Origin: Betaproteobacteria bacterium
GTDB lineage: Bacteria > Pseudomonadota > Gammaproteobacteria > Burkholderiales > Usitatibacteraceae
Direction: 5' to 3'
DNA: 64,000 nucleotides
NCBI GenBank assembly: GCA_016791265.1
Contig: JAEUMY010000004.1
Coordinates: 1-64,000 of the forward strand
Notes under the pieces: model-generated
What the model saw: the letters and a program-made list of their open reading frames with translations, nothing else
Told to the model about the DNA's origin: nothing
Databases searched by the model: none
In this document: positions 1,012 through 63,016 of the stretch, piece by piece
Numbering within the stretch: position 1 is the stretch's first letter
Layout: the number at the start of each line of letters is the position of its first letter
Program-made: the position numbers and the translations under genes

Positions 1012-1268
1012 GCGGCGTCCCTCGCCCCTCTGCGGGACGGCCGCGGCCGGCTCGCATGCGCAGCCGGCTCGCCGACGGTTGCGAATATTCGCAATCCACC
1101 CAGTGTTGCAGTCGCGGCACACCTCGACTGCATGAGTGGGGCGATGCGTTCCCCTTTGCCATCCTTTGTGGGATGATTCGGCCTGTTTACCATGCACACC
1201 CGAGCGGCGCCCAGAGACGCCGCCGACCGTTTTCCGCAATAACAAACCTTCCACTCGAGGAGCCACTC
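1012..1268. other. Intergenic region ppsR to esterase gene
   Basis: About 257 bases without a convincing gene. It holds one perfect copy of the iterated palindrome (1081-1092), extended here to a 16-bp perfect palindrome at 1079-1094. Just before the next start codon is a GAGGAG ribosome binding site at 1257-1263. I see no rho-independent terminator with a T-tract after ppsR. Confidence 0.5.
1081..1092. repeat. Iterated palindrome GCGAATATTCGC, intergenic
   Basis: Between ppsR and the esterase gene; dyad extends to 16 bp. Confidence 0.9.
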
Positions 1269-3164: not shown

Positions 3165-3186
3165 TTCACCGCCATTCGCGCGAGAT

Positions 3187-3218: not shown

Positions 3219-3234
3219 GGTGCAGAGTGACCCC

Positions 3235-3555
3235 ATGAAACGCGCCTACACCGCCTTCAATCTGCCGGACGCCCAGTTGATGGCTGATCTGCTCGCCCGA
3301 GCGGGCATTCGCGCGCGGGTGTTCAATCAGAACGCGGTGGGCGCGCTGGGCGAATTGCCCGTCGACGCTGCGCAGCCGCAAGTCTGGATCGAGGACGACC
3401 ACCGCCTCGAAGACGCTCGACGACTCATCGAGACGCATCAGCTTGCGAATATTCGCGGGGCGCCCTGGACCTGCCGGGCGTGCAGCGAGTCGAATCCGAT
3501 CACGTTCGAGACGTGCTGGAACTGCGGCATGGCCGATGGCACGGCGCGCGCCTGA
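3235..3555 (+). CDS. DUF2007 domain protein with C-terminal zinc ribbon
   Basis: A 106-aa cytoplasmic protein. Residues 1-65 are a DUF2007 (putative signal-transducing) domain, recognisable from MKRAYTAFNLPDAQLMADLL and the later PQVWIEDD. The C-terminal part has two CxxC pairs, CRAC and CWNC, as in RanBP2-type or rubredoxin-like zinc ribbons. The frame is open to 3211, but that start would lie within the upstream terminator, so ATG 3235 is preferred. The reading frame contains a copy of the iterated palindrome as ANIR, between the two domains. Function unknown. Confidence 0.85.
   Translation: MKRAYTAFNLPDAQLMADLLARAGIRARVFNQNAVGALGELPVDAAQPQVWIEDDHRLEDARRLIETHQLANIRGAPWTCRACSESNPITFETCWNCGMADGTARA
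3445..3456. repeat. Iterated palindrome in DUF2007 gene
   Basis: Read as ANIR between the two domains. Confidence 0.9.
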
Positions 3556-3565
3556 GCGCGAACGC

Positions 3566-5785
3566 TCACGGCGTGCCGAGAAAGAGGTACCAGGTGCTCC
3601 GCCCCTTGGGCGCGTTGGAGTAGCCGAAGTAGAGCGGGCCGACGATGGTGTTCATCCCCAGATACACGCCGAACGACTTCTGCCAACCGGTGAGCCGCGC
3701 TTCGGTGTAGGGCAGGCCCATCTTGCCCGCCTCGGCCAACACCCCCGCGTACACGCTGGCGCCGACGATGCCTGACGGCGCGAGCAGGCGGCGCTGCAGG
3801 GCCAGCCGCGCGAAGCGCATGTCGTCGCCCACCAGCTGATCGGACGCGAAGCCGGAAAGTCGGAACGGGCCGCCCAGGGTGAACGCGTCATACGCGGGCA
3901 GCACGCCGCGCGTGGTCGAACCCATCTCGGCGGTGAGTTGCAGCGTGTAGTCGCGCAGCGACCACGCTTTCCAGAGTTCCAGCGAGGCGCGCGCATAGGG
4001 CGCGTCTTCGCGATCCACGCGGCGCACATCGCGAATATTCGCATTGAGGAACAACCCACGCGAGGGGAAGTAGCGCTCGTCCAGCGTGTCGTATTCAAAG
4101 CCCAGGTAAGGCCCGCCGGATCGCGCGCGCTGGGCCTCGAAGAGCGCCAGGCCGGTCACGGTCTCCGCCTTCAGGCTGCGCTCAAGCCAACCCAGCCGTA
4201 GCTGTCCGGGCATGCCGAGGTTGTAGCCCACCTCGACGGCCATGCGACGATCCTGCACTTCGAATTCGCTGACCCGCGAACCCTCGACGTAAAGACCGCG
4301 GCTCGACTGAACGAAGCTCGCGGCGGGCTTCACATACCAGCGCTGTGGCTTGTCCAGCGGCTGGTACCACTCGGTCGCGATGACTTCGCGCTCGCCCAGC
4401 TGCAAGGTGGTGAGCCATTCCGCGCCCAACGGATTCATCCACGTGCGGTGATACACGGCGCGCAGGTTGTACGGCGCGTTGTTGTTGAAGTCGGTGGAGA
4501 AATTGATGCCGAAGCGCAGATAGTCCGGCCCCCACGATTTCTCGACCGGATTGATGCGCAGCACGCGCCGGCCCCCGACATTGTCGATGGCATAGTCGAC
4601 GGACTGGAAGTCGCCTTCGCCGTTCAGCCGCACCAGGCTCTTGTTCAGCCGCGCCGCGTCGAGCGGCTCGGAGAGCGGCACGTCGAGATGCTTCCTCACC
4701 ACCTCGGTGTTGACGCGGCCAAGCTTCGCCACCTCGATGGCGTCGATGGTCACCGGCGGTGGCTGGCGCGTGCGCAGATGCGCCATCTGGTAGTCGTACT
4801 CGATGCGAGTGAGCGCCAGCGGCGCCAGCTTCGCCGCCACCGCGCGCGCGGCCTTGCGTCCGGCCTCGATGGCCTCGGCATGGCGATTGAAGTCGGCGGC
4901 GGTGACCGTGCCCAGATCGGGGCGGATCAGGAGATCGGATTTGTTCAGCGCGGCGAACGACGCCTCCACGTTTTGATTGGTGAGGATGTTGATCATCTGC
5001 ACGGCCACGGACAAGACGCCGGCGATCTCCTCTGACTTCAAGAGCGGGGTGCCGACATCGACCGCGATGACGATGTCGGCGCAGAGCTTGCGCGCCTCGA
5101 CGACGGGCACGTTATCCACGAGGCCGCCGTCGACCAGCTTCTTGTTGTCGATGATCACCGGCACCATCAACCCCGGCACCGACATGCTGGCGCGCATGGC
5201 CTGCGAAAGGCTGCCGTCCTTCAACACGACCTTGGCGCCGGTGGCGATGTCGGTCGCGATGATCCGCGTCGGGACGGCGAGCGACTCGATGAGCCGCTGG
5301 CCACGATCCGCGCCCACCAACCCGTTGATGAAGAACTTGATCTTGTCGCCCGCGACCGCGCCGGAGCGGAATGCCGCAGAGCCGGAGCCGACACCGATTT
5401 CCAGCCCTGGAAAGGTTTGATCGTCCAACTGCTTCTTGCGCAGCTTCACGTCGGCCCGATCCGGCTCGTCGATGAAGATGTCGGTCCAGTCGGTCTGGCC
5501 GACGCGTTCGGCCATCGCCGCGGGCGAGCGTCCGGCCGCATACGCGCCGCCCACCAGGGCGCCCATGCTGGTGCCGACCACGCAGTCGACGGGAATGCGC
5601 ATTTCCTCCAGCACCTCCAACACGCCGATGTGCGCGGCGCCGCGCGCGCCGCCGCCGCCAAGCGCCAAGCCAATGCGCGGGCGCTTGGCCTGCGCGCCAG
5701 ACTGCGCATGCGAATATTCGCTGAACCCTGCGCCCATCAGCGCAAGCACACCGAGGCCCAGGCCGATACCCAGCATCCGCCGCAT
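3566..5785 (-). CDS. Patatin-like phospholipase fused to POTRA and Omp85-type barrel (PlpD-like)
   Basis: About 739 aa. A signal peptide (MRRMLGIGLGLGVLALMGAG...) precedes a patatin domain with the oxyanion loop GGGGARG (about 43-49), nucleophile elbow GTSMG (Ser about 73) and catalytic DGG (Asp about 219). A POTRA-like segment follows, then a C-terminal beta-barrel resembling BamA/FhaC. This is the type Vd autotransporter layout of Pseudomonas PlpD. ATG 5827 is also in frame and overlaps the yhhQ stop as ATGA, but the extra 14 codons are a translated copy of an extragenic GC-rich repeat, so 5785 gives the better signal peptide. Two copies of the iterated palindrome lie inside, one in the signal peptide (EYS) and one in the barrel (ANIR). 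Confidence 0.88.
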   Translation of the reverse strand: MRRMLGIGLGLGVLALMGAGFSEYSHAQSGAQAKRPRIGLALGGGGARGAAHIGVLEVLEEMRIPVDCVVGTSMGALVGGAYAAGRSPAAMAERVGQTDWTDIFIDEPDRADVKLRKKQLDDQTFPGLEIGVGSGSAAFRSGAVAGDKIKFFINGLVGADRGQRLIESLAVPTRIIATDIATGAKVVLKDGSLSQAMRASMSVPGLMVPVIIDNKKLVDGGLVDNVPVVEARKLCADIVIAVDVGTPLLKSEEIAGVLSVAVQMINILTNQNVEASFAALNKSDLLIRPDLGTVTAADFNRHAEAIEAGRKAARAVAAKLAPLALTRIEYDYQMAHLRTRQPPPVTIDAIEVAKLGRVNTEVVRKHLDVPLSEPLDAARLNKSLVRLNGEGDFQSVDYAIDNVGGRRVLRINPVEKSWGPDYLRFGINFSTDFNNNAPYNLRAVYHRTWMNPLGAEWLTTLQLGEREVIATEWYQPLDKPQRWYVKPAASFVQSSRGLYVEGSRVSEFEVQDRRMAVEVGYNLGMPGQLRLGWLERSLKAETVTGLALFEAQRARSGGPYLGFEYDTLDERYFPSRGLFLNANIRDVRRVDREDAPYARASLELWKAWSLRDYTLQLTAEMGSTTRGVLPAYDAFTLGGPFRLSGFASDQLVGDDMRFARLALQRRLLAPSGIVGASVYAGVLAEAGKMGLPYTEARLTGWQKSFGVYLGMNTIVGPLYFGYSNAPKGRSTWYLFLGTP
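4031..4042. repeat. Iterated palindrome in patatin-barrel gene
   Basis: Read as ANIR in the barrel (LNANIRDVR). Confidence 0.9.
5710..5721. repeat. Iterated palindrome in patatin-barrel gene, signal peptide
   Basis: Read as EYS at the end of the signal peptide (FSEYSHAQ). Confidence 0.9.
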
Positions 5786-5823
5786 GCCGCCCCGCCTCAC
5801 GCCTCCCGCCTTCCGCCTCACGC

Positions 5824-6579: not shown

Positions 6580-6591
6580 GCGAATATTCGC
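6580..6591. repeat. Iterated palindrome, intergenic
   Basis: In the 75-bp gap between yhhQ and the TrmH-family gene. Confidence 0.9.
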
Positions 6592-6624: not shown

Positions 6625-7425
6625 CTAGCGCTTTCTTCCGGCAGTCCCCCGCTGCCGCACCACCTCGAACAACGCGATCGCCCCGGCCGCGGCCGCGTTG
6701 AGCGACTCGAACCCGCCCGGCATCGGCAGCTTCGCGCGAATATTCGCACTATCCAACAGATGCCCGCTGAGACCCGCGCCCTCGTTGCCGATGAGGAGCG
6801 CGACCGGACCGGTGAGATCGCAGGTGAAGAGTGAAGTCTCGGTTCGTGGCGTCAGCGCGAGGCTCGCGCCGTGATAGGCGTGGACAAACGCGCCCAGGTC
6901 GGCGCCCTCAACGATGTTGAGATTGAAGTGAGCACCCTGGCCCGCGCGCAGCACCTTGGGCGCCCACGCGAACGCGCACGTGGGTGACAGGAGCACGTCC
7001 GCGCAGCCAGCGGCGGCCGCGGAACGCAGCAGCGCGCCCAGGTTGCCGGGATCCTGGATGTCTTCCAGCAACAGGCAGAACTTCGCTCTCGCCGAAACCG
7101 GCCGCGCATCCGGCGGGCGGATGAGCGCGAGGATGCCGGCGGGCGTTTCCACCATGGACGCATCCTGGAAAACCGCGTCGCTGAACACGGCGTGATGCGC
7201 GGCGTTCGCCGCCATCAAGCCGGCGATCTCCGGGCGACGCATGCCGGACTCGCTGGCGATGAGCGTGTCGGGCACGCCCAGCTTTTCGATGCAGGCCGCG
7301 ACCAGGTGCGCGCCTTCGATCAGGGCGAGGCCGGATTTCTTGCGTTCGCGCGAGGACTGCGCGAGACCTTTGACGCGCTTGGCCAGCACATTGTCGCGCG
7401 AGGTGATGAGCTTGGCGGCGGCCAT
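6625..7425 (-). CDS. TrmH/SpoU-family RNA 2'-O-ribose methyltransferase
   Basis: A 266-aa SPOUT methyltransferase. The three family motifs are present: LEDIQDPGNLGALLRSA (motif 1, with Asn and Arg), LLIGNEGAGLS (motif 2) and LPMPGGFESLNAAAA (motif 3, forming the trefoil knot around AdoMet). An N-terminal RNA-binding domain precedes them. ATG 7425 gives the start MAAAKLITSRDN, two bases after the stop of the upstream hydrolase gene. The target nucleotide cannot be told from sequence; 23S rRNA or tRNA are the options. A copy of the iterated palindrome (ANIR) falls between motifs 2 and 3. Confidence 0.9.
   Translation of the reverse strand: MAAAKLITSRDNVLAKRVKGLAQSSRERKKSGLALIEGAHLVAACIEKLGVPDTLIASESGMRRPEIAGLMAANAAHHAVFSDAVFQDASMVETPAGILALIRPPDARPVSARAKFCLLLEDIQDPGNLGALLRSAAAAGCADVLLSPTCAFAWAPKVLRAGQGAHFNLNIVEGADLGAFVHAYHGASLALTPRTETSLFTCDLTGPVALLIGNEGAGLSGHLLDSANIRAKLPMPGGFESLNAAAAGAIALFEVVRQRGTAGRKR
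6736..6747. repeat. Iterated palindrome in TrmH-family gene
   Basis: Read as ANIR; only 156 bp from the previous copy, the closest pair. Confidence 0.9.
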
Positions 7426-8213: not shown

Positions 8214-8842
8214 CAGAACGCCAGCCGCGATTGCGCGAGTGCGGCGCGCACAGGCGCGAAACTCACGCGATGAATGGGACATGGCCCGTGCCGTTTCAGC
8301 GCCGCCAGATGCTCCGCCGTGCCATAGCCCTTGTGACGGGCGAAACCGTAGTCGGGATAGCGGGCATCCCAGGCCAGCATTTCTTCGTCGCGGGCCACCT
8401 TGGCGAGGATCGATGCGGCCGAGATGGCGGGCACGAGGCGATCCCCCTCGACCATCGCGCGTGCGGGACACGACACGGCGGGCACATGCAGCCCATCGAC
8501 GCAAATCTCGGCGGCTGGAATCTTCAACGCGTCGACCGCGCGCTTCATCGCCAGCAGGCTGGCTTGCAGAATGTTGATGCGGTCGATCTCTTCCACCGTC
8601 GCGAACGCGATGGACCAGGCAAGCGAATATTCGCGTATGGCGCCAGCGAGCGACTCTCGTCGGCGCGAGGATAGCTGCTTGGAGTCGGCGAGCCCTGTGA
8701 TGGGGCGGCTGGGATCGAGAATGACCGCGGCGGCGTACACGGCGCCAGCGAGCGGACCGCGCCCGGCTTCGTCGACGCCCGCGAGCGTCGGGCCGGCGGC
8801 GGCGCCGGTGACGGCGCGCTCACGCGTGCGCGGCGCGGGCAT
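8213..8842 (-). CDS. rnhB: Ribonuclease HII
   Basis: A 209-aa enzyme that nicks RNA in RNA/DNA hybrids and removes single misincorporated ribonucleotides. Signatures are [19 protein letters not shown] (first catalytic Asp-Glu), DSKQLS, CVDG, and SILAKVARD with the last catalytic Asp. ATG 8842 gives MPAPRTRER and overlaps the lpxB end by 23 bases; the upstream extension looks like lpxB read in another frame. The iterated palindrome occurs as EYS at 8623. Confidence 0.95.
8623..8634. repeat. Iterated palindrome in rnhB
   Basis: Read as EYS (IREYSLAW). Confidence 0.9.
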
Positions 8843-11274: not shown

Positions 11275-12293
11275 GACTTTTCCCCCTGGTTGATCTTCTT
11301 CACCGTGGCGGCCATCTCGCCCAGGCGACGGAGCTGGCTGGCGTTTCTGAGCCAGTCCTCGTGCTTCATGAACGGCATGACCGAGGTGTAGGTGCCGGGC
11401 TCGGTGATGGACTTGGTGATCAGCGTCATCGCTGAAATGGTGCAGCGATCCGCCACGTCCAGATGGCCGAGGATGATGGCGCCGCCGCCCACCATGCAAT
11501 GGCTGCCGATGCGAGCACTCCCCGCCACGCCGACGCATCCCGCCATCGCGGTGTGGTCGCCGATGACCACGTTGTGACCGATCTGAATCTGGTTGTCCAG
11601 TTTCACGCCATTGCCGATGACGGTGTCATCCAGCGCGCCGCGGTCGATGGTCGTATTGGCGCCGATCTCGACATCATCGCCAATCAGCACACGGCCGGTC
11701 TGCGGAATTTTGACCCAACCGCCGGCGGGCCCGGCGAAATCGGGCGCGAAACCGAAACCATCCGCGCCGATGACCACACCGCTGTGGACGATGCAGCGTG
11801 CGCCGAGCTTGCAGCCGTCCGCCACGGTCACGCGCGCCGCGAGGCGCGTGCCCGCGCCGATCTCAGCACCCTCGCCGATGTGGCAGCCGGGGCCGACGCG
11901 CGCGCCGTCGCCGATGACCGCGCCCGCGCCCACCGACGCGAATTCGGCGATGCTGGCCGATGCCGCGACCTCCGCACCCGCATGCACGACGGCGGCGGGA
12001 TGCACCCCTTGCGAATATTCGCGTGGGGGCGAAAAGCGTTGCGCCACGCGGGCGAAGTAGGCGTAGGGATTGCGGGTGATGATGCGCGGCAGCGTGGTCG
12101 CATCGCGGTCCGCGTCGGACAGAATCACCGCGCCCGCCTGGCAGGCGGCCAGCTTGGCGCGGTACTTGGGATTGGCGAGAAAGGTGATCTGGTTCGGCGA
12201 GGCCGATTCCATCGCGCCGACCGCGACGATGTCCACGTCGGCATCGCCCGCGATTTCGCCGCCCAGTTCACGCACCAATTCGCCAAGTTTCAT
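11271..12293 (-). CDS. lpxD: UDP-3-O-(3-hydroxyacyl)glucosamine N-acyltransferase
   Basis: A 340-aa trimeric acyltransferase for the third step of lipid A synthesis. An N-terminal uridine-binding domain ([17 protein letters not shown]) is followed by hexapeptide repeats and the catalytic-loop segment [19 protein letters not shown], with the conserved His. The iterated palindrome occurs as EYS in the linker between the domains (PPREYSQGV), a variable position in the family. Confidence 0.97.
12011..12022. repeat. Iterated palindrome in lpxD
   Basis: Read as EYS in the inter-domain linker. Confidence 0.9.
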
Positions 12294-20830: not shown

Positions 20831-20860
20831 AAAGGGCTTGCGAATATTCGCAAGCCCTTT
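20831..20860 (-). terminator. tsf terminator built on the iterated palindrome
   Basis: A 30-bp perfect palindrome ten bases after the tsf stop. The arms AAAGGGCTT and AAGCCCTTT extend the common 12-mer GCGAATATTCGC (20840-20851). On the tsf strand it is followed by TGTTGT, so the run of U is short (TTTTGTTGT including the arm end). It should still form a long G+C-rich hairpin. This is the only copy in the window that clearly serves as a terminator stem. Confidence 0.75.
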
Positions 20861-21807: not shown

Positions 21808-21819
21808 GCGAATATTCGC
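21808..21819. repeat. Iterated palindrome, intergenic rpsB-tsf
   Basis: Twenty bases upstream of the tsf start codon, near where a tsf leader would lie. Confidence 0.9.
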
Positions 21820-29847: not shown

Positions 29848-32276
<2,429 letters not shown>

Positions 32277-39721: not shown

Positions 39722-39733
39722 GCGAATATTCGC
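39722..39733. repeat. Iterated palindrome, intergenic
   Basis: Between the divergent dinB-family gene and dapD. Confidence 0.9.
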
Positions 39734-42775: not shown

Positions 42776-42787
42776 GCGAATATTCGC
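42776..42787. repeat. Iterated palindrome before prmB
   Basis: Directly upstream of the prmB ribosome binding site, 13 bases before the ATG. Confidence 0.9.
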
Positions 42788-47446: not shown

Positions 47447-48517
47447 TTAATTCATCTTCTCAGCGAACTTCCACCCCAGCCCCGCCACCATCGGCGCCGC
47501 CTTGCCCATTTCGATGGCCTGCGCGCTGGACGCTGTGCCGTCCACAACCCGCTTGGCGATGCCTTGCAAGATGCCGGCCATGCGGAACAGGTTGTAGGCG
47601 AGGTAGAAATCCATGTGCGGAATGCCGGGCCGGCCGGTGCGTTCGCAGTACATTTCGGTGTACTTGCGAATATTCGGAATGCCCAGTTCGTCCAGCTTCA
47701 CGCCGGCCAGGCCACGCGCCGGGCCGGGCGGCATGACCCACACCATGCAGTGATAGGCGAAGTCAGCCAGCGGATGACCCAGGGTCGAAAGCTCCCAGTC
47801 CAGCACGGCCAGCACGCGCGGCTCGGTGGGATGCCAGATGAGATTGTCGAGGCGATAGTCGCCATGCACGATGGTCGTCTCGTCCCCGGCCGGAATGTGC
47901 GCGGGTAGCCAGTCGATGAGCGCATCCATGGCCGGAATCTTTTCCGTCTCGGATGCCCGATACTGCTTGGTCCAGCGAGTGATCTGGCGTTCGAAATAGT
48001 TGCCGGGCTTGCCGAACTCGGCGAGACCGATGGCGGCGTAGTCCACGGAATGCAGTGCCGCGATGACCCGGTTCATCTCCGCGAATATTCGAATGCGCTC
48101 GTCGTTTGAGAATCCCGGCAGCGCCGGGTCCCAGAGCACGCGGCCTTCCACGAACGCCATGATGAAGAACGCACGGCCGATAACCGCTTCATCCGCGCAA
48201 AGCGCGTACATCCTGGCCACCGGCACACCGCTCCCCGCCAGCGCCTTCATGACCGCGAACTCGCGCTCGATGGCGTGGGCGGAGGGCAAGAGCTTCGCTG
48301 CCGGGCCGGGCTTGGCGCGCATCACGTAAGTCTTCGATGGCGTGATGAGTTTGAAAGTGGGATTGGACTGGCCGCCTTTGAATTGTTCGATGCTGAGCGG
48401 GCCGACAAAGCCCTCCACGTTGACGGCCAGCCAGCGCTCCAGCGCAGGCACATCGAACTTCTGGTTCTCAGCGACGGGGCGCGTGCCCGAATTTCCGTTG
48501 CCTGCATCAAGCGACAT
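47447..48517 (-). CDS. APH-family phosphotransferase (ACAD10-like kinase)
   Basis: A 356-aa aminoglycoside-phosphotransferase-fold protein: FKGGQSNPTFKLITP (ATP loop), TIVHGDYRLDNLIWHP (catalytic HGDYRLDN) and AVLDWELSTLGHPLADFAY (metal-binding Asp). Mammalian ACAD10/11 fuse this kinase to an acyl-CoA dehydrogenase and act on 4-hydroxy acids; adjacency here suggests the same two-step chemistry, by inference. Two near-copies of the iterated palindrome lie inside (47666, 48081). The start overlaps the upstream phosphatase gene by 11 bases. Confidence 0.92.
   Translation of the reverse strand: MSLDAGNGNSGTRPVAENQKFDVPALERWLAVNVEGFVGPLSIEQFKGGQSNPTFKLITPSKTYVMRAKPGPAAKLLPSAHAIEREFAVMKALAGSGVPVARMYALCADEAVIGRAFFIMAFVEGRVLWDPALPGFSNDERIRIFAEMNRVIAALHSVDYAAIGLAEFGKPGNYFERQITRWTKQYRASETEKIPAMDALIDWLPAHIPAGDETTIVHGDYRLDNLIWHPTEPRVLAVLDWELSTLGHPLADFAYHCMVWVMPPGPARGLAGVKLDELGIPNIRKYTEMYCERTGRPGIPHMDFYLAYNLFRMAGILQGIAKRVVDGTASSAQAIEMGKAAPMVAGLGWKFAEKMN
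47666..47677. repeat. One-mismatch iterated palindrome in APH-kinase gene
   Basis: GCGAATATTCGG; coding strand reads PNIR. Confidence 0.7.
48081..48092. repeat. One-mismatch iterated palindrome in APH-kinase gene
   Basis: GCGAATATTCGA; coding strand reads RIFA. Confidence 0.7.
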
Positions 48518-49232
48518 GCGACGTTCCTTTTCTGAATTTCAGGTACTGCTCGTACAGCGCTTCCATGGTGGTCTTGCGCGTACTGGTGTGAAGCTGATCC
48601 AGCGGCGCGTGGTTGATGAGGCGCACCGAGACATCGTGCCGGCCTTCGCCCACGTCGATGGCATTCACGCACGCCGGCGCCTGGGCCAGCCCGCCGATGA
48701 ACTGCTTCTGCCCAGTGAGGAGATACGACAGCACGGCACGATTGACGCCGCCGTGCAACACCAGCAGCACGACATCCCAGTCGGGGTCTGCGCGCAGCGC
48801 GTCCACGCGCGGCATGACGCGGTCCATGAGCGCCCCCACTGTCTCGCCACCCAGAAACCGCGTATCGAGGTTGACCACGCCGTCCATGGCGCCGACGAAT
48901 GCCTGCCGCAGCTCCGGATCGGGAATGGCGGAGAGCTTGCCGCCGCCGATCTCGCGCAAATCCGCATCGTGTTGCAGCGCCAGGGACTGGCCGGCGGCCG
49001 TCAGCGCGCGCTGTGCCGTTTCCACCGTCCGTTCGAGCCCGCTCACGATGACGCGATCAAAGCGAATATTCGCACTGGCGAATAGCCGGCCCGCCGCGTC
49101 GGCCTGGTCGCGGCCCTGCGCATTCAGCGGCACGGTGTCCGGCGGATGCGGACGGCCATCCGCATCGAAATAGGTCACGCTGCCGTGGCGCATGAGGAAA
49201 ATTCGGCGGCGCGCCGCGTCCTTGGCGATCAT
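48507..49232 (-). CDS. Histidine phosphatase family protein
   Basis: A 241-aa phosphoglycerate-mutase-like protein. The RHG motif is FLMRHGSVTYFD (catalytic His about 16), and the second His is in LVLHGGVNRAVLSYLL. ATG 49232 (MIAKDAARRRIFLMRHG) gives a compact N-terminus. Its coupling to the APH kinase gene suggests a role in the same pathway, possibly removing a phosphate. The palindrome reads ANIR (FASANIRFDRV). Confidence 0.88.
   Translation of the reverse strand: MIAKDAARRRIFLMRHGSVTYFDADGRPHPPDTVPLNAQGRDQADAAGRLFASANIRFDRVIVSGLERTVETAQRALTAAGQSLALQHDADLREIGGGKLSAIPDPELRQAFVGAMDGVVNLDTRFLGGETVGALMDRVMPRVDALRADPDWDVVLLVLHGGVNRAVLSYLLTGQKQFIGGLAQAPACVNAIDVGEGRHDVSVRLINHAPLDQLHTSTRKTTMEALYEQYLKFRKGTSHVA
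49062..49073. repeat. Iterated palindrome in histidine phosphatase gene
   Basis: Read as ANIR (ASANIRFD). Confidence 0.9.
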
Positions 49233-51189: not shown

Positions 51190-51918
51190 ATGGCAACCCT
51201 GAACCCCGCTCAAATCGCGATCCTGCAAAGCGACATCTGGTTCTCCGGCCTGCCCGGCCCCGTGCGCGCCGCCATCATCGAGGCCGCGCAGGTGAAGCAT
51301 CTGGCCGATGGCGAATATTCGCACCGCAAAGATCGTCCTGGCGATGGCTGGATGGGCATCCTCTCGGGCGCGGTGAAAATCTGCGCCACCGCCCCGGACG
51401 GCAAACAGACCGCGCTCGCATTCCTCGAGCCGGGCACATGGTTTGGCGAAATCTCCCTCTTCGATGGCTTGCCGCGCACGCATGACGGCATCGCCCACGG
51501 CCCGACTGAATTGCTGCTGGTGGCCAATCACGAATTCCGCGAACTCCTGAAGCAACATCCCGAGCTGCCGATGCACTTCCTGAAGCTGCAGGCGTCGCGC
51601 CTGCGCCTCTTGTTCGCCGCGATGGAAGATGTGAATGTGTTGCCGCTGCCTGCGCGGTTGGCCAAGCAACTGGTGAATCTGTCGCACGCCTACGGCGTGA
51701 AGGAGCAGGATGGTGTGCGCATCAATCTGCATCTTCCGCAAGAGGATCTCGCTCAGCTCCTGGGCTCGTCGCGTCAGCGCGTCAATGTGCTTCTCTCCGA
51801 CTGGGTGCGGCAGGGCTGGGTGTCGGTGCGTTACGGCGGTGTGACCCTGCACGACGAGCTGCCGCTGAAGCGCATCGCGGCAGGGGATGTCGCGGCCAGC
51901 GCCACCGCACAGGCCTAG
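51190..51918 (+). CDS. Crp/Fnr family transcriptional regulator
   Basis: A 242-aa regulator: cyclic-nucleotide-type beta-roll (GWMGILSGAVKICATAPDGKQ, then LEPGTWFGEISLFDGLPRTH in the phosphate-binding cassette region), dimer helix, and winged helix LPQEDLAQLLGSSRQRVNVLL. No N-terminal Cys cluster for an iron-sulfur centre is present, so it is not an oxygen-sensing FNR proper. ATG 51190 follows AAAGAGAG. It converges with the ligase gene, sharing CTAG as overlapping stops. The palindrome reads EYS (DGEYSHRKD). Confidence 0.9.
   Translation: MATLNPAQIAILQSDIWFSGLPGPVRAAIIEAAQVKHLADGEYSHRKDRPGDGWMGILSGAVKICATAPDGKQTALAFLEPGTWFGEISLFDGLPRTHDGIAHGPTELLLVANHEFRELLKQHPELPMHFLKLQASRLRLLFAAMEDVNVLPLPARLAKQLVNLSHAYGVKEQDGVRINLHLPQEDLAQLLGSSRQRVNVLLSDWVRQGWVSVRYGGVTLHDELPLKRIAAGDVAASATAQA
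51311..51322. repeat. Iterated palindrome in Crp/Fnr gene
   Basis: Read as EYS (GEYSHRKD) in the sensor domain. Confidence 0.9.
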
Positions 51919-53420
51919 CGAAGACTTTCGCGCAGCGCCGTCTTCAACACCTTGCCATAGGCGTTTTTGGGCAAGGCTGACAAAAATCGGTACTGCTTCG
52001 GCCGCTTGAAGCGGGCGATATGTCGCAGGCAATGCGCATCCAGCGCCGCCGCATCGGCGAAACCATCTCGGCCCACGACGCAGGCCACCACAACCTCGCC
52101 CCATTCGACATCGACTTCGCCGATCACGGACACCTCGGCGACACCAGGATGCGTGAGCAGCACCTCCTCCACCTCGCGCGGATAGATGTTCGAACCGCCG
52201 GAAATGATCAGGTCCTTGCCGCGGTCCTTCAAGGTGAGAAAGCCCTCGGCGTCGAAGCTGCCCAGATCGCCGGTCAACAACCAACCCTCCGACAACGCAG
52301 CAGCGGTCGCCGCCGCATCCCGCCAATAGCCCGCCATCACCGTGCCGCCGCGCACGCGGATTTCGCCCACCTCCCCCACCGGCAGCTCGCGGCCCGCCTT
52401 GTCGCAGACGCGCACTTCGACGCCTGTGAACGGCACGCCCACCGACGCGAGCCGCTCACGAAAGCGCAGATGGGCCGCATCGTTCATCACCGCCCTTGGC
52501 AGCGCGGTGATGGTCATCGGCGTTTCACCCTGACCGTAAATCTGCGCAAGCTTCCCTGCGAATATTCGCAACGCGTCCTCAGCGTCGGCCACGTACATGG
52601 GCCCACCGCCGTAGACGATCAACTTCAAGCCACGCAGCGCACGCGCCGTCCAGCCGGCGTGCCGCGCGAGTCGCTTCACCATCGTGGGTGCCGCGAACAT
52701 CGTCACACCCCGATGCGCCGCAAGCAACGCGATGACCTCGTCCTCCACGAAGCCGCCCGACTCCGGTACGACCTGCGCCGCGCCAGCCATGAGATGCGGC
52801 AGCGCGTACAACCCCGACCCGTGCGACAAGGGCGCCGCATGCAGAATGCAATCCGCGGGCGCGATGGCATCGACCTGGGCGACGTAATTGAGACACATGG
52901 CCGCGAGATTGCCGTGGGTGAGCATCGCACCCTTGGGGCGGCCGGTGGTGCCGCTGGTGTAGAAAAGCCAGGCCAACGCGCTGTCGGCGACATCCACCAC
53001 ATCAATTGGCGGATGCATCACGTACTGCGAATATTCGCCGCCATCCAGCGTGATCAGACGCACGTCCGTGAACGATGCGGCCAGCTTGTCACGCCATTCT
53101 TCATCCACGCAGACGGCCTTCGCGCCTGACTGTTCGAGGATGTAAGCCGCCTCGCGCGGATGCAGCTTCGCGTTGACGGGCACCGCCACAAGCCCGGCCC
53201 ACCAGATGGCAAAGAGCGCCTCCAGATACGCCGGCTGATTGGCGGAGAGAAGCATGACGCGCTCGCCGGGCACCAGCCCCGAGGCGACGAAGCTGCCCGC
53301 CAGCGCCGCCGCGCGACGCGCCAGAGTGGCATGGTCGGCGACGAGGCGCGTACCCCGCAGCAAGGCCGGCGCGTCCGGTGCCTGCAATGCCTTGCGTTTC
53401 AGCCAAAGTACGCAGTTCAT
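51915..53420 (-). CDS. AMP-forming acyl-CoA synthetase
   Basis: About 501 aa. P-loop FYTSGTTGRPKGAMLTHGN, QIYGQGETPM in the adenylate motif, GFLTLKDRGKDLIISGGSNI and the C-terminal catalytic Lys in PKNAYGKVLKTALRE. It resembles short/aryl acid-CoA ligases more than FadD. ATG 53420 (MNCVLWLKRKALQ) is preferred over a TTG 13 codons upstream. It contains two copies of the palindrome, RIFA (52558) and EYS (53027). Confidence 0.92.
   Translation of the reverse strand: MNCVLWLKRKALQAPDAPALLRGTRLVADHATLARRAAALAGSFVASGLVPGERVMLLSANQPAYLEALFAIWWAGLVAVPVNAKLHPREAAYILEQSGAKAVCVDEEWRDKLAASFTDVRLITLDGGEYSQYVMHPPIDVVDVADSALAWLFYTSGTTGRPKGAMLTHGNLAAMCLNYVAQVDAIAPADCILHAAPLSHGSGLYALPHLMAGAAQVVPESGGFVEDEVIALLAAHRGVTMFAAPTMVKRLARHAGWTARALRGLKLIVYGGGPMYVADAEDALRIFAGKLAQIYGQGETPMTITALPRAVMNDAAHLRFRERLASVGVPFTGVEVRVCDKAGRELPVGEVGEIRVRGGTVMAGYWRDAAATAAALSEGWLLTGDLGSFDAEGFLTLKDRGKDLIISGGSNIYPREVEEVLLTHPGVAEVSVIGEVDVEWGEVVVACVVGRDGFADAAALDAHCLRHIARFKRPKQYRFLSALPKNAYGKVLKTALRESLR
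52558..52569. repeat. Iterated palindrome in acyl-CoA synthetase gene
   Basis: Read as RIFA (DALRIFAGKL). Confidence 0.9.
53027..53038. repeat. Second iterated palindrome in acyl-CoA synthetase gene
   Basis: Read as EYS (GGEYSQYV), 469 bp from the first; two frames used within one gene. Confidence 0.9.
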
Positions 53421-54458: not shown

Positions 54459-54549
54459 AGGCGGAAGGCGGGAGGAGGTAGGCGACGCAGTTCGACCAAT
54501 GCGAATATTCGCAATCGTCGCGCACGCTGACATTCCCCGCCTTCCGCCT
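54459..54549. repeat. Inverted repeat centred on an iterated palindrome
   Basis: Arms AGGCGGAAGGCGGG (54459-54472) and its exact complement (54536-54549) flank a perfect copy of the 12-mer (54501-54512) that lies almost at the centre. The arm sequence recurs at 5802-5821 beside the patatin gene, so it is another dispersed repeat family. It occupies the gap between the haem-sensor and kinase genes. Confidence 0.65.
54501..54512. repeat. Iterated palindrome, intergenic
   Basis: At the centre of a 14-bp-arm inverted repeat upstream of the kinase gene. Confidence 0.9.
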
Positions 54550-54564
54550 ACCACCTCCCTACCA

Positions 54565-55992
54565 ATGTCCCAACCAGACAAAATCGGCAAATACCAGATC
54601 GTCAAAGAACTGGGCAAAGGCGCCATGGGCATGGTGTACGAGGGCTTTGACCCCGGCATCGAACGCCGCGTCGCCATCAAGACCATCCTGCCCGAGTATT
54701 TGCAAGATGCCGAATCGGAAGAAGCGGTCGCGCGCTTCAAGCGCGAGGCGCAGGCATCAGGGCGCTTGCAGCATCCGGGCATCGTGCAGGTCTACGAATA
54801 TTCGGAGGACGGCGGCATGGCGTACATCGTCATGGAATACGCCGAGGGCAGCGAGCTGAAGGACCATCTCAAGAAGGGCAAGCGCTTCGAGATGATCCAC
54901 ATTTTCGAGATCATGAAGCAGTTGCTGGTGGCGCTTGACTACTCGCACAAGCAAGGCGTGATTCACCGCGACATCAAGCCTGCCAACATCATGCTGACCA
55001 ATGGACTCAAGGTGAAGCTGATGGATTTCGGCATCGCCCGCATCGGCACGTCGTCGATGACCCAGGTGGGCACCGTGGTCGGAACGCCGTCGCACATGGC
55101 GCCGGAACAATTGATGGGCCTCACCGCCGATGGCCGCACCGATCTCTGGGCCACGGCCATCGTGCTGTACGAGCTGCTGACCGGCAAGAATCCCTTCCTC
55201 GCCGAAACACCTGCCGCGGTGATGCACAACGTGCTCTCCGCCGAGCCACCGCCGCCGTCGTTCTACCGCCCCGACATTCCGGCCAGCATCGACACGTTCT
55301 TCAAGCATGCGCTGGCCAAGAAGCCGGCTGATCGCTTCGCCAACGCGCGCGAGTTCCTCACCAATCTATTGCAGGCGTTTCAGGGCAAGGAGTTCACCGC
55401 GACCGTCGCTATGAAGGCCATGGATGCCGAGAAGACCCAGCCGATCAACCTGGGTACCGCGCAAGCTGACGCCACCCAGCGCGTGGCCGCACCTGGCGAA
55501 GAGACGCGCATCATGGCGAAGGCGCTCGACATCGCGCCAGAGCGCCTGAAGGAAATCGAAGGGTCGCTCACCCGTTATCTCGGCCCGCTCGCGAAAGTGG
55601 TGGTGCGCGAAAGCCAGGCCGTGTCATCCAACCTGGACCAGTTCTTCGCGGCGCTGGCGGACAACATCGCCGAAGGCGCGGAGAAAGAGGCGTTCCTGAA
55701 GCGGGTGAAAGTCTGGCAAGGCGCCGAACTGTCCAGCCCGCACCTGGACGCCACCGGTGCATCGGCGCCGCGCCCGGCCGAAGCCTCGACACCGCGCGCC
55801 GTGTTCTCCCCGGAGGTGCTTTCCACGGCGGAAAAGCGGCTCGCAAGCTACGTCGGCCCGCTCGCGAAACTGCTCATCAAGCAGACCGCCGGCTCAACCG
55901 GCACCATCAAGGAGCTCTACGCCAAACTCGCCGAGAACATCGACGATCCGGCCGAGCGCAAGGCGTTTCTGGCGACGGTGGATCGGGCGTGA
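54565..55992 (+). CDS. Serine/threonine protein kinase with duplicated C-terminal domain
   Basis: A 475-aa soluble Hanks-type kinase: glycine loop GKGAMGMVYEG (about 18-28), Lys 39 in VAIKTI, HRDIKPAN (Asp about 136), DFG (about 154) and APEQLMG. There is no membrane helix and no PASTA domain. The C-terminal part has two related segments of about 60 residues, at about 321-385 and 413-472, sharing the pattern RYLGPLAK...F/YAxLAxNI...EKEAFL. They probably form a duplicated helical domain, of unknown ligand. The frame extends upstream to 54499, but ATG 54565 is preferred as the first with the standard MSQPDKIGKYQIVKELG start. Confidence 0.93.
   Translation: MSQPDKIGKYQIVKELGKGAMGMVYEGFDPGIERRVAIKTILPEYLQDAESEEAVARFKREAQASGRLQHPGIVQVYEYSEDGGMAYIVMEYAEGSELKDHLKKGKRFEMIHIFEIMKQLLVALDYSHKQGVIHRDIKPANIMLTNGLKVKLMDFGIARIGTSSMTQVGTVVGTPSHMAPEQLMGLTADGRTDLWATAIVLYELLTGKNPFLAETPAAVMHNVLSAEPPPPSFYRPDIPASIDTFFKHALAKKPADRFANAREFLTNLLQAFQGKEFTATVAMKAMDAEKTQPINLGTAQADATQRVAAPGEETRIMAKALDIAPERLKEIEGSLTRYLGPLAKVVVRESQAVSSNLDQFFAALADNIAEGAEKEAFLKRVKVWQGAELSSPHLDATGASAPRPAEASTPRAVFSPEVLSTAEKRLASYVGPLAKLLIKQTAGSTGTIKELYAKLAENIDDPAERKAFLATVDRA
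54794..54805. repeat. Degenerate iterated palindrome in kinase gene
   Basis: ACGAATATTCGG; the inner 10-bp dyad CGAATATTCG is intact. Read as EYS. Confidence 0.5.
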
Positions 55993-56054: not shown

Positions 56055-56066
56055 GCGAATATTCGC
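56055..56066. repeat. Iterated palindrome, intergenic
   Basis: In the gap between the convergent kinase and membrane-protein genes. Confidence 0.9.
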
Positions 56067-57826: not shown

Positions 57827-58350
57827 TCACAAACAGCCGCCGTCGGGCGCGCCATAGCGGGTGGTGATCGCCTGCGCGGGTGGACCGGACAGCACGGTGA
57901 TGAAGCGCGAATATTCGCACTCCGACATGTCGGCCACGTCGGCGCCCAGCGCGCGGGCGATGGCCGGCACGGTGTTGCTGTGGCCGACGATGACGACGAC
58001 GCCGTCCTTTCGCTCGCGCGCGAGCTTCACCACTTCGGCCACATGCTCCGCCATGCCGCCACGGGCGATGGTCAGCACGCGCGGGGTGATCCGGGCCTGC
58101 GTCGCGAGTGGCGCCGCCGTGTCCCGCGTCCGCCTTGCCTGGCTGGTGAGAATGGCGGCGACGTTCGCACCCTTCAGCGCGACGGCCAGCGCGTCGGCGC
58201 GGCGCTGCCCTGCTTCGGCAAGGGGCGGGTCATCCTTGGGGGACTCCGCCTTCTCGGCGTGACGCACCAGCACGACAGTCTGCGCGTTCGCGGCCGCGAC
58301 GAAGCATGCGCCCGCCAGCGCGATGATGCGCAAAGCGAAAAGAATCACGC

Positions 58351-58354
<4 letters not shown>
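57827..58354 (-). CDS. SixA-like exported histidine phosphatase
   Basis: A 175-aa phosphohistidine/phosphate phosphatase: VVLVRHAEKAESPKDDPPL (catalytic RHA) and VVVIVGHSNTVPAI (second His). GTG 58354 starts a hydrophobic N-terminus (VSVILFALRIIALAGACFVAAANA) that looks like a signal peptide, so it probably acts in the periplasm, unlike cytoplasmic SixA. It overlaps the upstream ATPase gene as GTGA. Palindrome reads EYS at 57907. Confidence 0.87.
57907..57918. repeat. Iterated palindrome in SixA-like gene
   Basis: Read as EYS (ECEYSRFIT). Confidence 0.9.
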
Positions 58355-60162
<1,808 letters not shown>

Positions 60163-60238: not shown

Positions 60239-60835
60239 TTACTTCAGCGTTCCCGCCGCCCGCGCCTTGGCCACTTCCGCCGCCACTTCTTCGCCGCTCT
60301 TGTAGTGCGGCACGCGGAAGATCATGCGCTGGGTGCGCTGGAAGAAGGCATTGCTGCCGTTGACCTCATCCTTCCAGTATTTGTCGGCGAGCGCGATGTG
60401 CTTCACCGGATCGACCATGAATCCGTCACGCGAGCCTGCGCCGCCGAAGATGTAGAGCTTGCCGTCGATGATGCGCCACGCGTTGGCATCGCCACCCCAG
60501 GGAATGCCGTACACGATGCCATTGGCGCAATAGCCGCCGTACTGGGGCAGGTATTTCTCGGGCGCGGCATCGAACAACGTCTTGTGCTCGGGTTTGGAGA
60601 AGTGGAACGTCACGCCCTTGTAGTCGCTGCGAATATTCGCATTGCCCTTTTTGTGCGTGTTCTCGGTGAAGTAGCTCACCACGTCATGGCCGAAGAGCAT
60701 CAAGTGCTTGGCCTCTCCTTCGGCCACGGCGTTCACCGGGGAATAGCCCTGACCCGGGCTCTGGGTGGTGAGGGGCGCACAGGCGGAAAGCGCGGCGAGC
60801 AGGACAACGGCGGCCAACAGTCTTGAAATGAACAT
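60239..60835 (-). CDS. YHS domain-containing lipoprotein
   Basis: A 198-aa exported protein. Signal peptide MFISRLLAAVVLLAALSAC with lipobox LSAC, then a YHS-type domain around HDVVSYFTENTHKKGNANI and YLPQYGGYCANGIVYG, which often binds metal. The C-terminal part ends in a helical segment. It is divergent from the molybdoenzyme gene. The iterated palindrome encodes ANIR in the domain's surface loop. Confidence 0.88.
   Translation of the reverse strand: MFISRLLAAVVLLAALSACAPLTTQSPGQGYSPVNAVAEGEAKHLMLFGHDVVSYFTENTHKKGNANIRSDYKGVTFHFSKPEHKTLFDAAPEKYLPQYGGYCANGIVYGIPWGGDANAWRIIDGKLYIFGGAGSRDGFMVDPVKHIALADKYWKDEVNGSNAFFQRTQRMIFRVPHYKSGEEVAAEVAKARAAGTLK
60629..60640. repeat. Iterated palindrome in YHS lipoprotein gene
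   Basis: Read as ANIR (GNANIRSD). Confidence 0.9.
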
Positions 60836-60925: not shown

Positions 60926-63016
60926 ATGACCCGCACCGCCTACCGCGCCTGCAACCTCTGCGAAGCCATCTGCGGCCTCGAATTCAAGATCGACGGTGAC
61001 AGGATCGTCAGCATCAAGGGCGATCACGCCGACCCGTTCAGTCGTGGCCACATCTGCCCCAAGGCCGTGGCGCTGAAGGACATCCATGAAGACCCGGACC
61101 GGCTGCGCAAACCCATGAAGCGCATCGGCACCGAGTGGCACGAGATCGGCTGGGAGGAGGCCATCGCGCTGGCCGCCGATCGCATCGCCGCCATCCAGAA
61201 TGTGAATGGCAATGAGGCATTCGGCTTCTACGCCGGCAATCCGTCCGTGCATAACTTCGGCACGCTCTGGTCGCTGCCCCGGCTGGCGCGTGTGCTGAAG
61301 ACCAAGAGCGCCTTCAGCGCCACGTCCGTGGACCAGCTGCCGCAGCAGCTCGCGTCCTTCTTCATGTACGGGCACCAGTTCATGATCCCCATCCCGGACA
61401 TCGACCACACGCACTACTTCCTCATCTTGGGTGGCAATCCCATCGCGTCCAACGGCAGCATGATGACCGTGCCGGATGTGGCGAAGCGCCTGAAAGCCAT
61501 CCGGCAGCGCGGCGGCAAGGTGGTGGTGATCGATCCGCGCCGGACGGAGACGGCGGAGGTCGCGGATGAGCATCACTTCATCCGGCCGGGGAGTGATGCG
61601 GCGCTGTTGATGGCGATGATCAATGTGCTGAAGGCGGAGGGACGGCTGGCCAACATCCACCATGCTGCGCAGCTCGCCGAGCTGGACGAAGCCCTCGCCG
61701 CAATCGCCCACGTCACGCCTGAGGTCGCCGAGCGCGTCACCGGCATTTCCGTTGCGAATATTCGCAGGCTGGCTATCGAGTTTGCCAACGCTCCCTCAGC
61801 GATCTGCTACGGCCGGCTGGGCACCACGGTGCAATCCTTCGGCACGCTCACACAGTGGCTGGTGCAACTCCTCAACATCGTCACCGGCAATCTCGACCGC
61901 GTTGGCGGCACCCTGCCCACCCAGCCGGCGCTGCCGCTGGCCGGGCCTGGTTCTCGCCCAGGCCACTACGCCGAGTGGCGCTCCCGCGTGCGCGGCCTGC
62001 CCGAGTCCGGCGGCGAGCTGCCCGTCGCGGCGCTGGCGGAGGAAATTCTCACCCCCGGTGTCGGCCAGATCCGCGGAATGCTCACCGTGTGCGGTAACCC
62101 GGTGTTGTCCACGCCCAACGGCCGGCAGTTGGAGCAGGCACTGGCGAGTCTCGAATTCATGGTGTCGGTGGACATCTACCTCAACGAAACCACGCGCCAC
62201 GCCCACCTCATCCTGCCGCCCGCCTCATCGCTGCAGCACGATCACTACGACAGCGTGTTCAACGCCTTCGCCGTGCGCGAGGTGACGCGCTTCAACGAAG
62301 CGCTATGGCCGCGCGGTGAAGACGAGTTGTGCGACTGGGAAATCTTCAATGCGCTGGGCGCGGCGATTTCCGCGCGCAACAAGCGTCCCTTCTCGCCGCT
62401 GCCCGATCCGCGCCTCGCGCTGGCCGCCGCGCTGCATGCAACCGGCAATCAGCACGACGTGACGCTCGACGGCCTGCTCGCCGCACCGCACGGCCTGGAC
62501 CTCGGCCCGCTCTCGCCATCACTCTTCGCTCGCCTGGAAACCCCGGAGAAGAAAGTGCAATGCGCGCCCGCACCCGTGCTGGCCGACATCGCGCGCTTCA
62601 GCCGCGAAGTGCTGGAAACGAAACCGCAAGCGCTACAACTCGTCGGCCGCCGCCACGTGCGCAGCAACAATTCCTGGATGCACCAGTACCACCGACTGAC
62701 CAAGGGCAAACCGCGCCATCAGCTATGGATGCATCCAGACGATCTCGCGCAGCGAGGTTTGCAGAGCGGGCAGGAGGTGACGCTGCGGTCGGCGAAAGGA
62801 GAAGTCCGGGTACCGGTGGAAGCCAGTGTGGATGTGATGCCTGGCGTGGTGTGCTTGCCACACGGCTGGGGCCACAACCGCGACGGCACCCGGCTGTCGG
62901 AGGCGGAGCGGAATGCGGGGGTGAGCTACAACGATGTCAGCGACGAGATGCAGTTGGATGCGGTGTCCGGGAATGCGGCGTTGAATGGGGTGGCGGTCGA
63001 GGTCGTAGGGACGTAG
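60926..63016 (+). CDS. Molybdopterin oxidoreductase with N-terminal [4Fe-4S] site
   Basis: A 696-aa member of the DMSO reductase family. The iron-sulfur ligands are Cys 9, 12, 16 and 44 (CNLCEAIC...HICPKA). Segments LILGGNPIASNGSMM and VVVIDPRRTETAEVAD bind the molybdopterin guanine dinucleotides, and the C-terminal domain has HRLTKGKPRHQLWMHPDD. There is no Tat signal, so it is cytoplasmic, like formate dehydrogenase-type or acetylene-hydratase-type enzymes; substrate unknown. The palindrome reads ANIR at 61754. Confidence 0.92.
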   Translation: MTRTAYRACNLCEAICGLEFKIDGDRIVSIKGDHADPFSRGHICPKAVALKDIHEDPDRLRKPMKRIGTEWHEIGWEEAIALAADRIAAIQNVNGNEAFGFYAGNPSVHNFGTLWSLPRLARVLKTKSAFSATSVDQLPQQLASFFMYGHQFMIPIPDIDHTHYFLILGGNPIASNGSMMTVPDVAKRLKAIRQRGGKVVVIDPRRTETAEVADEHHFIRPGSDAALLMAMINVLKAEGRLANIHHAAQLAELDEALAAIAHVTPEVAERVTGISVANIRRLAIEFANAPSAICYGRLGTTVQSFGTLTQWLVQLLNIVTGNLDRVGGTLPTQPALPLAGPGSRPGHYAEWRSRVRGLPESGGELPVAALAEEILTPGVGQIRGMLTVCGNPVLSTPNGRQLEQALASLEFMVSVDIYLNETTRHAHLILPPASSLQHDHYDSVFNAFAVREVTRFNEALWPRGEDELCDWEIFNALGAAISARNKRPFSPLPDPRLALAAALHATGNQHDVTLDGLLAAPHGLDLGPLSPSLFARLETPEKKVQCAPAPVLADIARFSREVLETKPQALQLVGRRHVRSNNSWMHQYHRLTKGKPRHQLWMHPDDLAQRGLQSGQEVTLRSAKGEVRVPVEASVDVMPGVVCLPHGWGHNRDGTRLSEAERNAGVSYNDVSDEMQLDAVSGNAALNGVAVEVVGT
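61754..61765. repeat. Iterated palindrome in molybdoenzyme gene
   Basis: Read as ANIR (SVANIRRLA). Confidence 0.9.

Follow-up and report, generated by a model that had tools for sequence, protein, structure and literature searches.

A 12-bp palindrome iterated throughout the genome of an uncultured betaproteobacterium

The repeated word in the window and in its host

The DNA considered here is a 64-kb stretch of a betaproteobacterial genome (positions 1 to 64,000 of contig JAEUMY010000004.1, assembly GCA_016791265.1), hereafter called the window. Its predicted genes, which include those for an SMC protein and a type IV pilus assembly ATPase, and the gaps between them carry copies of a 12-bp perfect palindrome, GCGAATATTCGC. 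The word was first picked out in an initial annotation, made from the letters alone, that counted 30 exact copies. We found the same 30, each at the start given for it (Table 1). Dinucleotide shuffles of the window predict 0.02 copies, and none of 100 shuffles reached 30. Five near-copies had also been listed. Four of these do differ from the palindrome by one letter, whereas the fifth differs by two. The bias reported for the flanking bases was identical on recounting, with a pyrimidine to the left of 24 of the 30 copies and a purine to the right of 28 of the 30.

Table 1. Copies of the palindrome in the window, with their gene context, and the pilus gene discussed in the text
Feature	Position	Strand	Context
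Exact copy	1081..1092		Between predicted genes
Exact copy	3445..3456		In gene 3220-3555 (+)
Exact copy	4031..4042		In patatin/Omp85 gene 3566-5776 (-)
Exact copy	5710..5721		In patatin/Omp85 gene 3566-5776 (-)
Exact copy	6580..6591		Between predicted genes
Exact copy	6736..6747		In gene 6625-7425 (-); reads Ala-Asn-Ile-Arg
Exact copy	8623..8634		In gene 8213-8842 (-); reads Glu-Tyr-Ser
Exact copy	12011..12022		In gene 11271-12293 (-)
Exact copy	16560..16571		3' end of gene 16547-17761 (-)
Exact copy	20840..20851		Between predicted genes, within a longer inverted repeat
Exact copy	21808..21819		Between predicted genes
Exact copy	25661..25672		In GlnD-type uridylyltransferase gene 23757-26396 (+); reads Arg-Ile-Phe
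Exact copy	28347..28358		Between predicted genes
Exact copy	28893..28904		In gene 28379-28933 (-)
Exact copy	29184..29195		In gene 28940-29830 (-), 70-78% identical to relatives
Exact copy	30664..30675		In gene 29848-31866 (-); ANIR here, ADAR or VDAR in several relatives
Exact copy	36096..36107		In SMC gene 33645-37181 (-); Ala-Asn-Ile-Arg, in most relatives Ala-Arg-Glu-Arg, gapless
Exact copy	37773..37784		In gene 37369-37806 (+)
Exact copy	39722..39733		5' edge of gene 39720-40649 (+); start uncertain, intergenic in first gene set
Exact copy	42776..42787		Between predicted genes
Exact copy	45863..45874		In gene 44301-45974 (-)
Exact copy	49062..49073		In gene 48507-49232 (-)
Exact copy	51311..51322		In Crp-family gene 51190-51918 (+)
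Exact copy	52558..52569		In AMP-binding enzyme gene 51915-53459 (-)
Exact copy	53027..53038		In AMP-binding enzyme gene 51915-53459 (-)
Exact copy	54501..54512		Between predicted genes
Exact copy	56055..56066		Between predicted genes
Exact copy	57907..57918		In histidine-phosphatase-family gene 57827-58354 (-)
Exact copy	60629..60640		In gene 60305-60826 (+)
Exact copy	61754..61765		In molybdopterin oxidoreductase gene 60926-63016 (+)
Near-copy	31408..31419		One mismatch, inner letter
Near-copy	33484..33495		One mismatch, outer letter
Near-copy	47666..47677		One mismatch, outer letter
Near-copy	48081..48092		One mismatch, outer letter
Two-mismatch copy	54794..54805		10-bp core CGAATATTCG intact
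Type IV pilus assembly ATPase (TfpB)	58351..60162	-	Above NCBIfam cut-off; part of the machinery that the proposed uptake role would need

The host genome is a draft of an uncultured bacterium in 24 contigs (3,937,828 bases, 89.93% complete). Below, L-numbers denote DNA stretches and G-numbers denote genomes, G000 being the host and the others its relatives. The draft holds 1,624 copies of GCGAATATTCGC, or one per 2.4 kb, and no copy of the reversed word that served as a control. Copies are present on all 24 contigs, in agreement with the chromosome-like, unclustered spread first proposed. For detailed work we used the window and 40 stretches of the host genome, 849,212 bases in all (22%), which contain 369 exact 12-mers. 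In a subset of 449,212 bases there are 195 copies, compared with 0.035-0.046 expected from motif-masked Markov models of order 2-4. The motif is neither a chance product nor confined to the window, the two objections that the annotation had raised against itself.

Relatives of the host nearly lack the word. Each of 27 family members has 0-4 copies. The maximum is nine in 398 other genomes of the order (of 399) and six in 368 other genomes of the class (of 369); thus nine is the highest count among 778 distinct other genomes. No second genome of the host's own genus turned up in the family search. Nor do the relatives appear to have 'dialect' words of their own, since no 12-mer passed the threshold of eight (both strands) in nine relatives (20-80 kb each), where the strongest 10-mer was seen 8 times against 0.8 expected. 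Sequence comparison places the host among the relatives of Betaproteobacterium UKL13-2. The SMC protein of the window is 65-66% identical to those of UKL13-2 and of metagenome-assembled genomes labelled Burkholderiales, Nitrosomonadaceae, Rhodocyclaceae and Betaproteobacteria. The GC content is 63% in the window and 50-64% at other family loci examined, and 55% is given for UKL13-2. Published work is quoted here from the parts of each text that were available. No prior account of the 12-mer was found in the literature searched, which covers few subscription journals and no bioRxiv preprints; its letters occur in four records, the one work listed being on colibactin.

Placement, anatomy and origin of the copies

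Genes were called with our own codon-bias finder, which missed the atypical C5 methylase gene described below. As first annotated, the word occupies both genes and gaps. What had gone unstated is a bias: predicted coding DNA has 0.31 copies per kb (232 sites) and the remainder 1.32 per kb (137 sites). This roughly four-fold excess is conservative, because the gene finder overstates non-coding length in atypical DNA. Within genes one reading frame is preferred; the word is read as Ala-Asn-Ile-Arg at 128 sites, Arg-Ile-Phe at 54 and Glu-Tyr-Ser at 50. Between the lowest and highest fifths of codon-bias score, the number of sites per kb runs 0.26, 0.43, 0.44, 0.26 and 0.20. A promoter or terminator element was rejected because densities are alike in tandem (1.50 per kb), divergent (1.13 per kb) and convergent (1.19 per kb) gaps.

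Close pairs of copies are scarce. We compared the sample with 500 simulated placements that preserved the coding and non-coding numbers of each stretch. Pairs less than 100 bp apart numbered 11 (24.5 ± 4.3 simulated), those below 250 bp 32 (49.5 ± 5.4), those below 500 bp 60 (84.3 ± 6.7, with none of the 500 placements as low) and those below 1 kb 119 (139.6 ± 6.9). One locus, L265:500-2900 (G000:C2), has four copies within 190 bp (cluster 572-749), where a duplicated block carries copies. Next to the cluster lie recurring short words and what we read as remnants of YD-repeat-like coding sequence.

Over-dispersion is seen in the counts of 39 stretches at the 20-kb scale (mean 8.6, variance 13.8, p 0.012), and stretches richer in GC hold more copies (rho 0.49, p 0.0016). 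The over-dispersion is partly explained by the two poorest stretches, L263 and L261, in which genes were named from our reading of translated starts, without a Pfam search. L263 (20 kb) has no copy; its gene starts read as those of a metal-efflux island, and it is apparently foreign. L261 has a single copy, at 8719. None lies in its phage-like part (1-8673), which ends with an integrase-like gene adjacent to pnp, and none in the following 11.3-kb run, which reads as pnp, rpsO, truB, rbfA, infB and nusA.

The word has a sharp centre. Mismatch counts refer to the 849,212 sampled bases. The 10-bp core CGAATATTCG occurs 408 times, with both outer letters of the 12-mer present in 369 cases, one in 37 and none in two. 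One-mismatch forms of the 12-mer number 51, against 2.7 expected, and are mostly changes of the outer letters: 37 differ at the outermost letter, and folded positions 2-6 account for 1, 4, 2, 4 and 3. One-mismatch forms of the core number 23, against 19.0 expected from the masked Markov model. Per exact form there are 0.14 one-mismatch forms of the 12-mer and 0.06 of the core, which has essentially no near-miss halo. Given that one-mismatch cores are at chance, the word may even have been written whole and not one letter at a time. Parts of the word are not in excess outside the motif in the 449-kb subset, where AATATT (19, expected 18.9) and GAATATTC (3, expected 2.6) are at chance and GCGAAT is near expectation (176, expected 150-208). 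Spacer variants of GCGA..TCGC are not enriched.

The annotation had also proposed a wider consensus. This emerges in sharper form, tending to TGCGAATATTCGCA, and is clearest between genes, where T is found at -1 in 76%, T at -2 in 47% and C at -4 in 44% of 75 sites. The flank preferences are graded and mirrored, with an overall extent of ~20 bp, and left and right flanks do not compensate one another (Fisher p 0.58). The unit can be summarised as a 10-bp core inside an outer G/C pair that hardly varies, with graded preferences further out.

An all-or-none core at kilobase-scale spacing would suit a Chi-like signal, or a nicking signal for mismatch repair, that is read in double-stranded DNA by a recombination or repair nuclease and is free of methylation. 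The Chi sites known so far are short, oriented words without symmetry. E. coli Chi has 1,008 exact and 8,855 one-mismatch forms, the latter against 3,579 expected, which is the halo that the present core lacks. A signal of this kind is improbable here.

Orthologs in the relatives bear on how the coding copies arose. At 16 sites, 98 of 105 ortholog comparisons are gapless. Gaps are commoner at sites than in 2,957 controls (6.7% and 1.5%, respectively) but still rare. Nucleotide identity to orthologs is 0.41 at sites and 0.65 in controls; amino acid identity is 0.32 and 0.65. With distance, amino acid identity rises from 0.26 within two codons (16 sites) to 0.40-0.45 at 2-6 codons and 0.53-0.68 beyond six (17-19 sites). 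The 105 comparisons and the distance profile count some relatives twice (one genome, two loci). With doubles removed (14 sites, 78 pairs), the adjoining 12 nucleotides on each side are only 0.54 identical, so the sites lie in rather variable patches. In the same recount, a mean of 7.1 letters separates the aligned 12-mers of relatives from the motif (control 9.0), and four to eight separate that of the closest relative. These alignments indicate that the word replaced other sequence in place, in a mostly length-neutral manner and with changes to the encoded amino acids. At such divergence, a chance near-miss may have been completed by one last substitution, or the word may have come by several substitutions or by replacement of a patch.

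The mostly gapless alignments leave a mobile insert or miniature element unsupported. With it goes the 'self-spreading sequence' of the annotation, if taken to mean an inserted mobile unit. The same evidence bears on whether the word is an artefact of assembly or binning, or a linker. The genome is an incomplete draft in 24 contigs, and long poly-C runs stand at the start of one of them. There, L110:1-209 (start of G000:C9) has two single-base runs, of 109 and 96, that are probably an assembly artefact. An artefact would hardly leave copies in predicted reading frames with a frame preference of 128/50/54, aligned to relatives mostly without gaps, in flanks that are varied yet patterned, and missing from island-like DNA. 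We give artefacts and mobile inserts together a negligible chance.

Possible readers of the palindrome

We infer that a sequence-specific drive maintains the copies: something reads the intact palindrome only and favours inheritance of the DNA that bears it. The reader is probably a symmetric dimer. The absence of near-misses around the core speaks for an all-or-none reader, and the amino acid changes are more readily explained by drive than by tiny benefits at each site. The annotation had offered four mechanisms, namely a dimeric DNA-binding protein, a modification enzyme, a chromosome-organising role and a self-spreading sequence. DNA uptake was not among them.

A protein for chromosome organisation or segregation might bind each copy as a dimer, selection maintaining about one site per 2.4 kb. 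The symmetry of the site, its flanks graded over ~20 bp, the presence of copies on each of the 24 contigs and the shortage of close pairs would all fit. So would a 20-bp palindrome with the same core, ATCTGCGAATATTCGCAGAT, which is found among 80 viral stretches listed in three and two copies in two viral contigs (L142, L160, L179; L150, L158). These copies look like repressor operators, so dimeric proteins can evidently read the core. However, binding proteins usually tolerate mismatches, and one-mismatch cores are at chance; moreover, a tiny benefit spread over 1,624 sites would hardly pay for the replaced amino acids. We regard a chromosome organiser as unlikely. Phages as carriers of the word were rejected; 102 viral stretches hold a 14-mer, and none has more than two 12-mers.

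A further possibility is a highly iterated palindrome (HIP) in the strict sense. Following Elhai's proposal for HIP1 (GCGATCGC) of cyanobacteria, the palindrome or its core would be methylated by a solitary methyltransferase and would accumulate through methylation-directed mismatch repair. In a model of this type there is about one useful site per kilobase and the outer G/C is gained last. Several properties of the host word agree with this. Its half-sites are those of HIP1 (GCGA|TCGC), set four bases apart (GCGA-ATAT-TCGC). HIP1 has a TGCGATCGCA extension in several cyanobacteria, as the word has a T..A extension here. The 12-mer deviates mainly at its first or last letter (37 of 51), as reported for HIP1 in the text available. 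HIP1 is also said to arise in situ and to be rare in genes of foreign origin and in most ribosomal protein genes; here, the island and the 11.3-kb pnp-infB-nusA run are free of the motif. Pairs closer than 1 kb are in deficit.

A fitting enzyme is harder to name. Five Pfam families of methyltransferases were searched in the ~90% complete genome; it has no PF01555 and no PF02086 enzyme, other enzyme families not having been sought. The search returned one HsdM-type enzyme and one C5 methylase of unassigned specificity, together with a short additional match to PF07669 at 43358-43498 of the window. The HsdM-type enzyme is 82-83% identical in G005, G012, G013 and G019, whose motif counts are 0, 0, 0 and 1. 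Hence, it was rejected as the distinguishing enzyme, four motif-poor relatives carrying it. At its locus (L253:7806-11901, G000:C12) the gene adjoins those for a GIY-YIG/RAMA-domain protein and an AbiEi/AbiEii-like pair, and none of the neighbours examined encodes a specificity subunit.

The C5 methylase lies in a 4.75-kb segment of 49% GC (L252:7230-11979, G000:C21) that holds no copy of the word. The segment also encodes a Vsr endonuclease, a NOV_C-domain protein, a GmrSD-type protein and a small unassigned protein. The motif-free gap around the C5 gene includes what reads as polA, the atypical part being only 4.75 kb. The locus resembles a recently gained restriction system, a weak point against the enzyme. 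With an expectation of only about two copies in the segment, finding none argues only weakly for a recent gain. The C5 enzyme stays a candidate because the CGATCG enzyme of Synechocystis is likewise a C5 methylase (PMC6604393, in the part seen). A methylase would also need to read ~10 bp, given that AATATT and GAATATTC are at chance outside the motif. Taken together, we place methylation-directed accumulation not far behind the explanation favoured below and ahead of a chromosome organiser, although the modification enzyme of the annotation is without a good candidate. Repair of the Vsr type was rejected as the drive: the Vsr gene is present, yet the AATATT centre cannot arise through T:G repair at C positions. 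A restriction site was also rejected, the word being enriched in the genome and not avoided.

Self-DNA recognition in natural transformation, kept by drive, is the job of the reader that we favour, with a probability somewhat above one in three. Recognition would take place at uptake, by minor pilins of the type IV pilus, or at subsequent recombination. Fragments with a site would enter or recombine more often, and alleles with the site would displace those without it. Our estimate reflects that uptake-biased transformation is the sole such drive with experimental support elsewhere, and that the best-known case, Neisseriaceae, belongs to the same order as the host in the GTDB sense. The deficit of close pairs would be expected, because one site per fragment suffices for uptake.

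The host appears to be equipped for DNA uptake. Its competence channel gene, ComEC, has no internal stop and its product scores above the NCBIfam cut-off, as does the pilus ATPase of the window. A minor-pilin operon begins with a candidate pilin of 142 amino acids at L267:6705-7133 (-) (G000:C9, ~106.7-107.1 kb), which matches Pfam ComP_DUS with 46.5 bits (cut-off 27.3). Next come genes for a GspH-family pilin, a PilV-like protein (below the NCBIfam cut-off), a PilW-like protein (below the Pfam cut-off), a small unmatched gene and PilY1.

Other observations weigh against a transformation tag. ComEC is also found in 24 of the 27 relatives, themselves with 0-4 copies, and therefore explains nothing alone. 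ComP_DUS also covers pilins from species without uptake sequences. A search of the PDB with the candidate pilin returned 22 sequences of other pilins (E up to 0.01), none named ComP. The cysteines of the candidate (72, 86, 133 and 142) do not follow the ComP pattern, in which disulfides join cysteines 76-125 and 118-139 (PMC4906244). Known uptake sequences are not palindromes (PMC1939737), at least in the text available. They also keep an excess of one-mismatch forms that the host core (23, expected 19.0) lacks. The A. pleuropneumoniae uptake word has 947 such forms against 86 expected, or 2.2 per exact copy. The DNA uptake sequence (DUS) of N. bacilliformis has 4,914 one-mismatch to 4,265 exact copies (1.15; PMC3630211). 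For H. influenzae and N. gonorrhoeae we estimate ~0.5 and ~0.4 one-mismatch forms per exact copy from printed ratios together with genome size and GC content. Longer half-words are slightly in excess outside the host motif in the 449-kb subset, with 23 GCGAATA (14-16 expected) and 8 GCGAATAT (3.1-3.6 expected). The host word is sharper than HIP1 and every uptake word compared, and sharpness alone cannot choose between a HIP and an uptake sequence. On the side of uptake, dyad symmetry has a precedent: in Simonsiella muelleri, 1,294 overlapping DUS pairs stand in dyad symmetry, and the authors hint at recognition by a dimer (PMC3630211, as available).

Tentatively, then, the word may represent a new kind of palindromic self-DNA tag. 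It would be independent of methylation and read all-or-none by a symmetric reader, and would lie outside cyanobacteria, Neisseriaceae and Pasteurellaceae, having been driven to 1,624 copies, coding sequence included, in one lineage. The gene for the reader should be findable by comparison of gene content, because the sequenced relatives nearly lack the motif. If the reader were a pilin, uptake specificity would have arisen once more, and to our knowledge for the first time with a perfect palindrome.

Comparison with known systems

Sites for nucleoid occlusion and segregation (SlmA, Noc, MatP and ParB) are 12-16 bp long and palindromic or near-palindromic, as is the host word. They number in the tens and are regional, whereas the host word has 1,624 copies on all 24 contigs. 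Chi is likewise a short word over-represented throughout a genome. It is shorter, non-palindromic and oriented, and its near-copies are in excess.

The resemblance to DUS of Neisseriaceae and to the uptake signal sequences of Pasteurellaceae lies in a lineage-specific word with more than 1,000 copies, for which sites between genes are favoured, in a host with a competence channel (ComEC), a pilus ATPase and a minor-pilin operon. Overlapping DUS pairs with dyad symmetry, known from Simonsiella and Kingella (PMC3630211, in the part seen), add to the likeness. The host word differs in that it is a perfect palindrome with no excess of one-mismatch cores; the ComP cysteine pattern is not seen in the candidate pilin, and an uptake role in the host is a prediction from its genes.

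HIP1, named as nearest precedent in the annotation, is right in form, and several parallels that we tested were upheld. Described in 1995, HIP1 has a function that is still open, and a link to methyltransferases is the main clue (PMC4390886). HIP1 and alternate HIPs are iterated palindromes with kilobase spacing, the same GCGA/TCGC half-sites and, in some genomes, a T..A extension. End-letter deviations, formation in place and scarcity in foreign and highly expressed genes are further likenesses (PMC4390886, PMC3025956, both as available). In side observations, GCGATCGC itself is depleted in the host sample (33, expected 85.6), as are CGATCG (217, expected 646) and, in 449 kb, GTGCAC (16, expected 96). 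GCGATCGC is mildly in excess in three relatives of another genus (L284-L289; 45, expected 23, in 120 kb).

The host word also departs from HIP1. It is 12 bp long with an AT spacer, whereas HIP1 has 8 bp, and it occurs once per 2.4 kb in a betaproteobacterium, in one genome as sampled. It is sharper, with 51 one-mismatch to 369 exact forms compared with 1,830 to 5,648 (0.32) for the HIP1 10-mer of Synechocystis. A cognate methyltransferase is the rule for HIP in cyanobacteria, with exceptions, according to the text available; no methyltransferase has been shown to fit in the host. A second iterated palindrome with the behaviour of HIP1, in a host that is no cyanobacterium and for which no methyltransferase yet fits, could uncouple the phenomenon from methylation. 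In common with HIPs, the host word is a palindrome in excess, made in place, with deviations at its end letters. Thus, it works like a HIP, yet by sequence and host it is not HIP1 itself, nor do we file it as a DUS.

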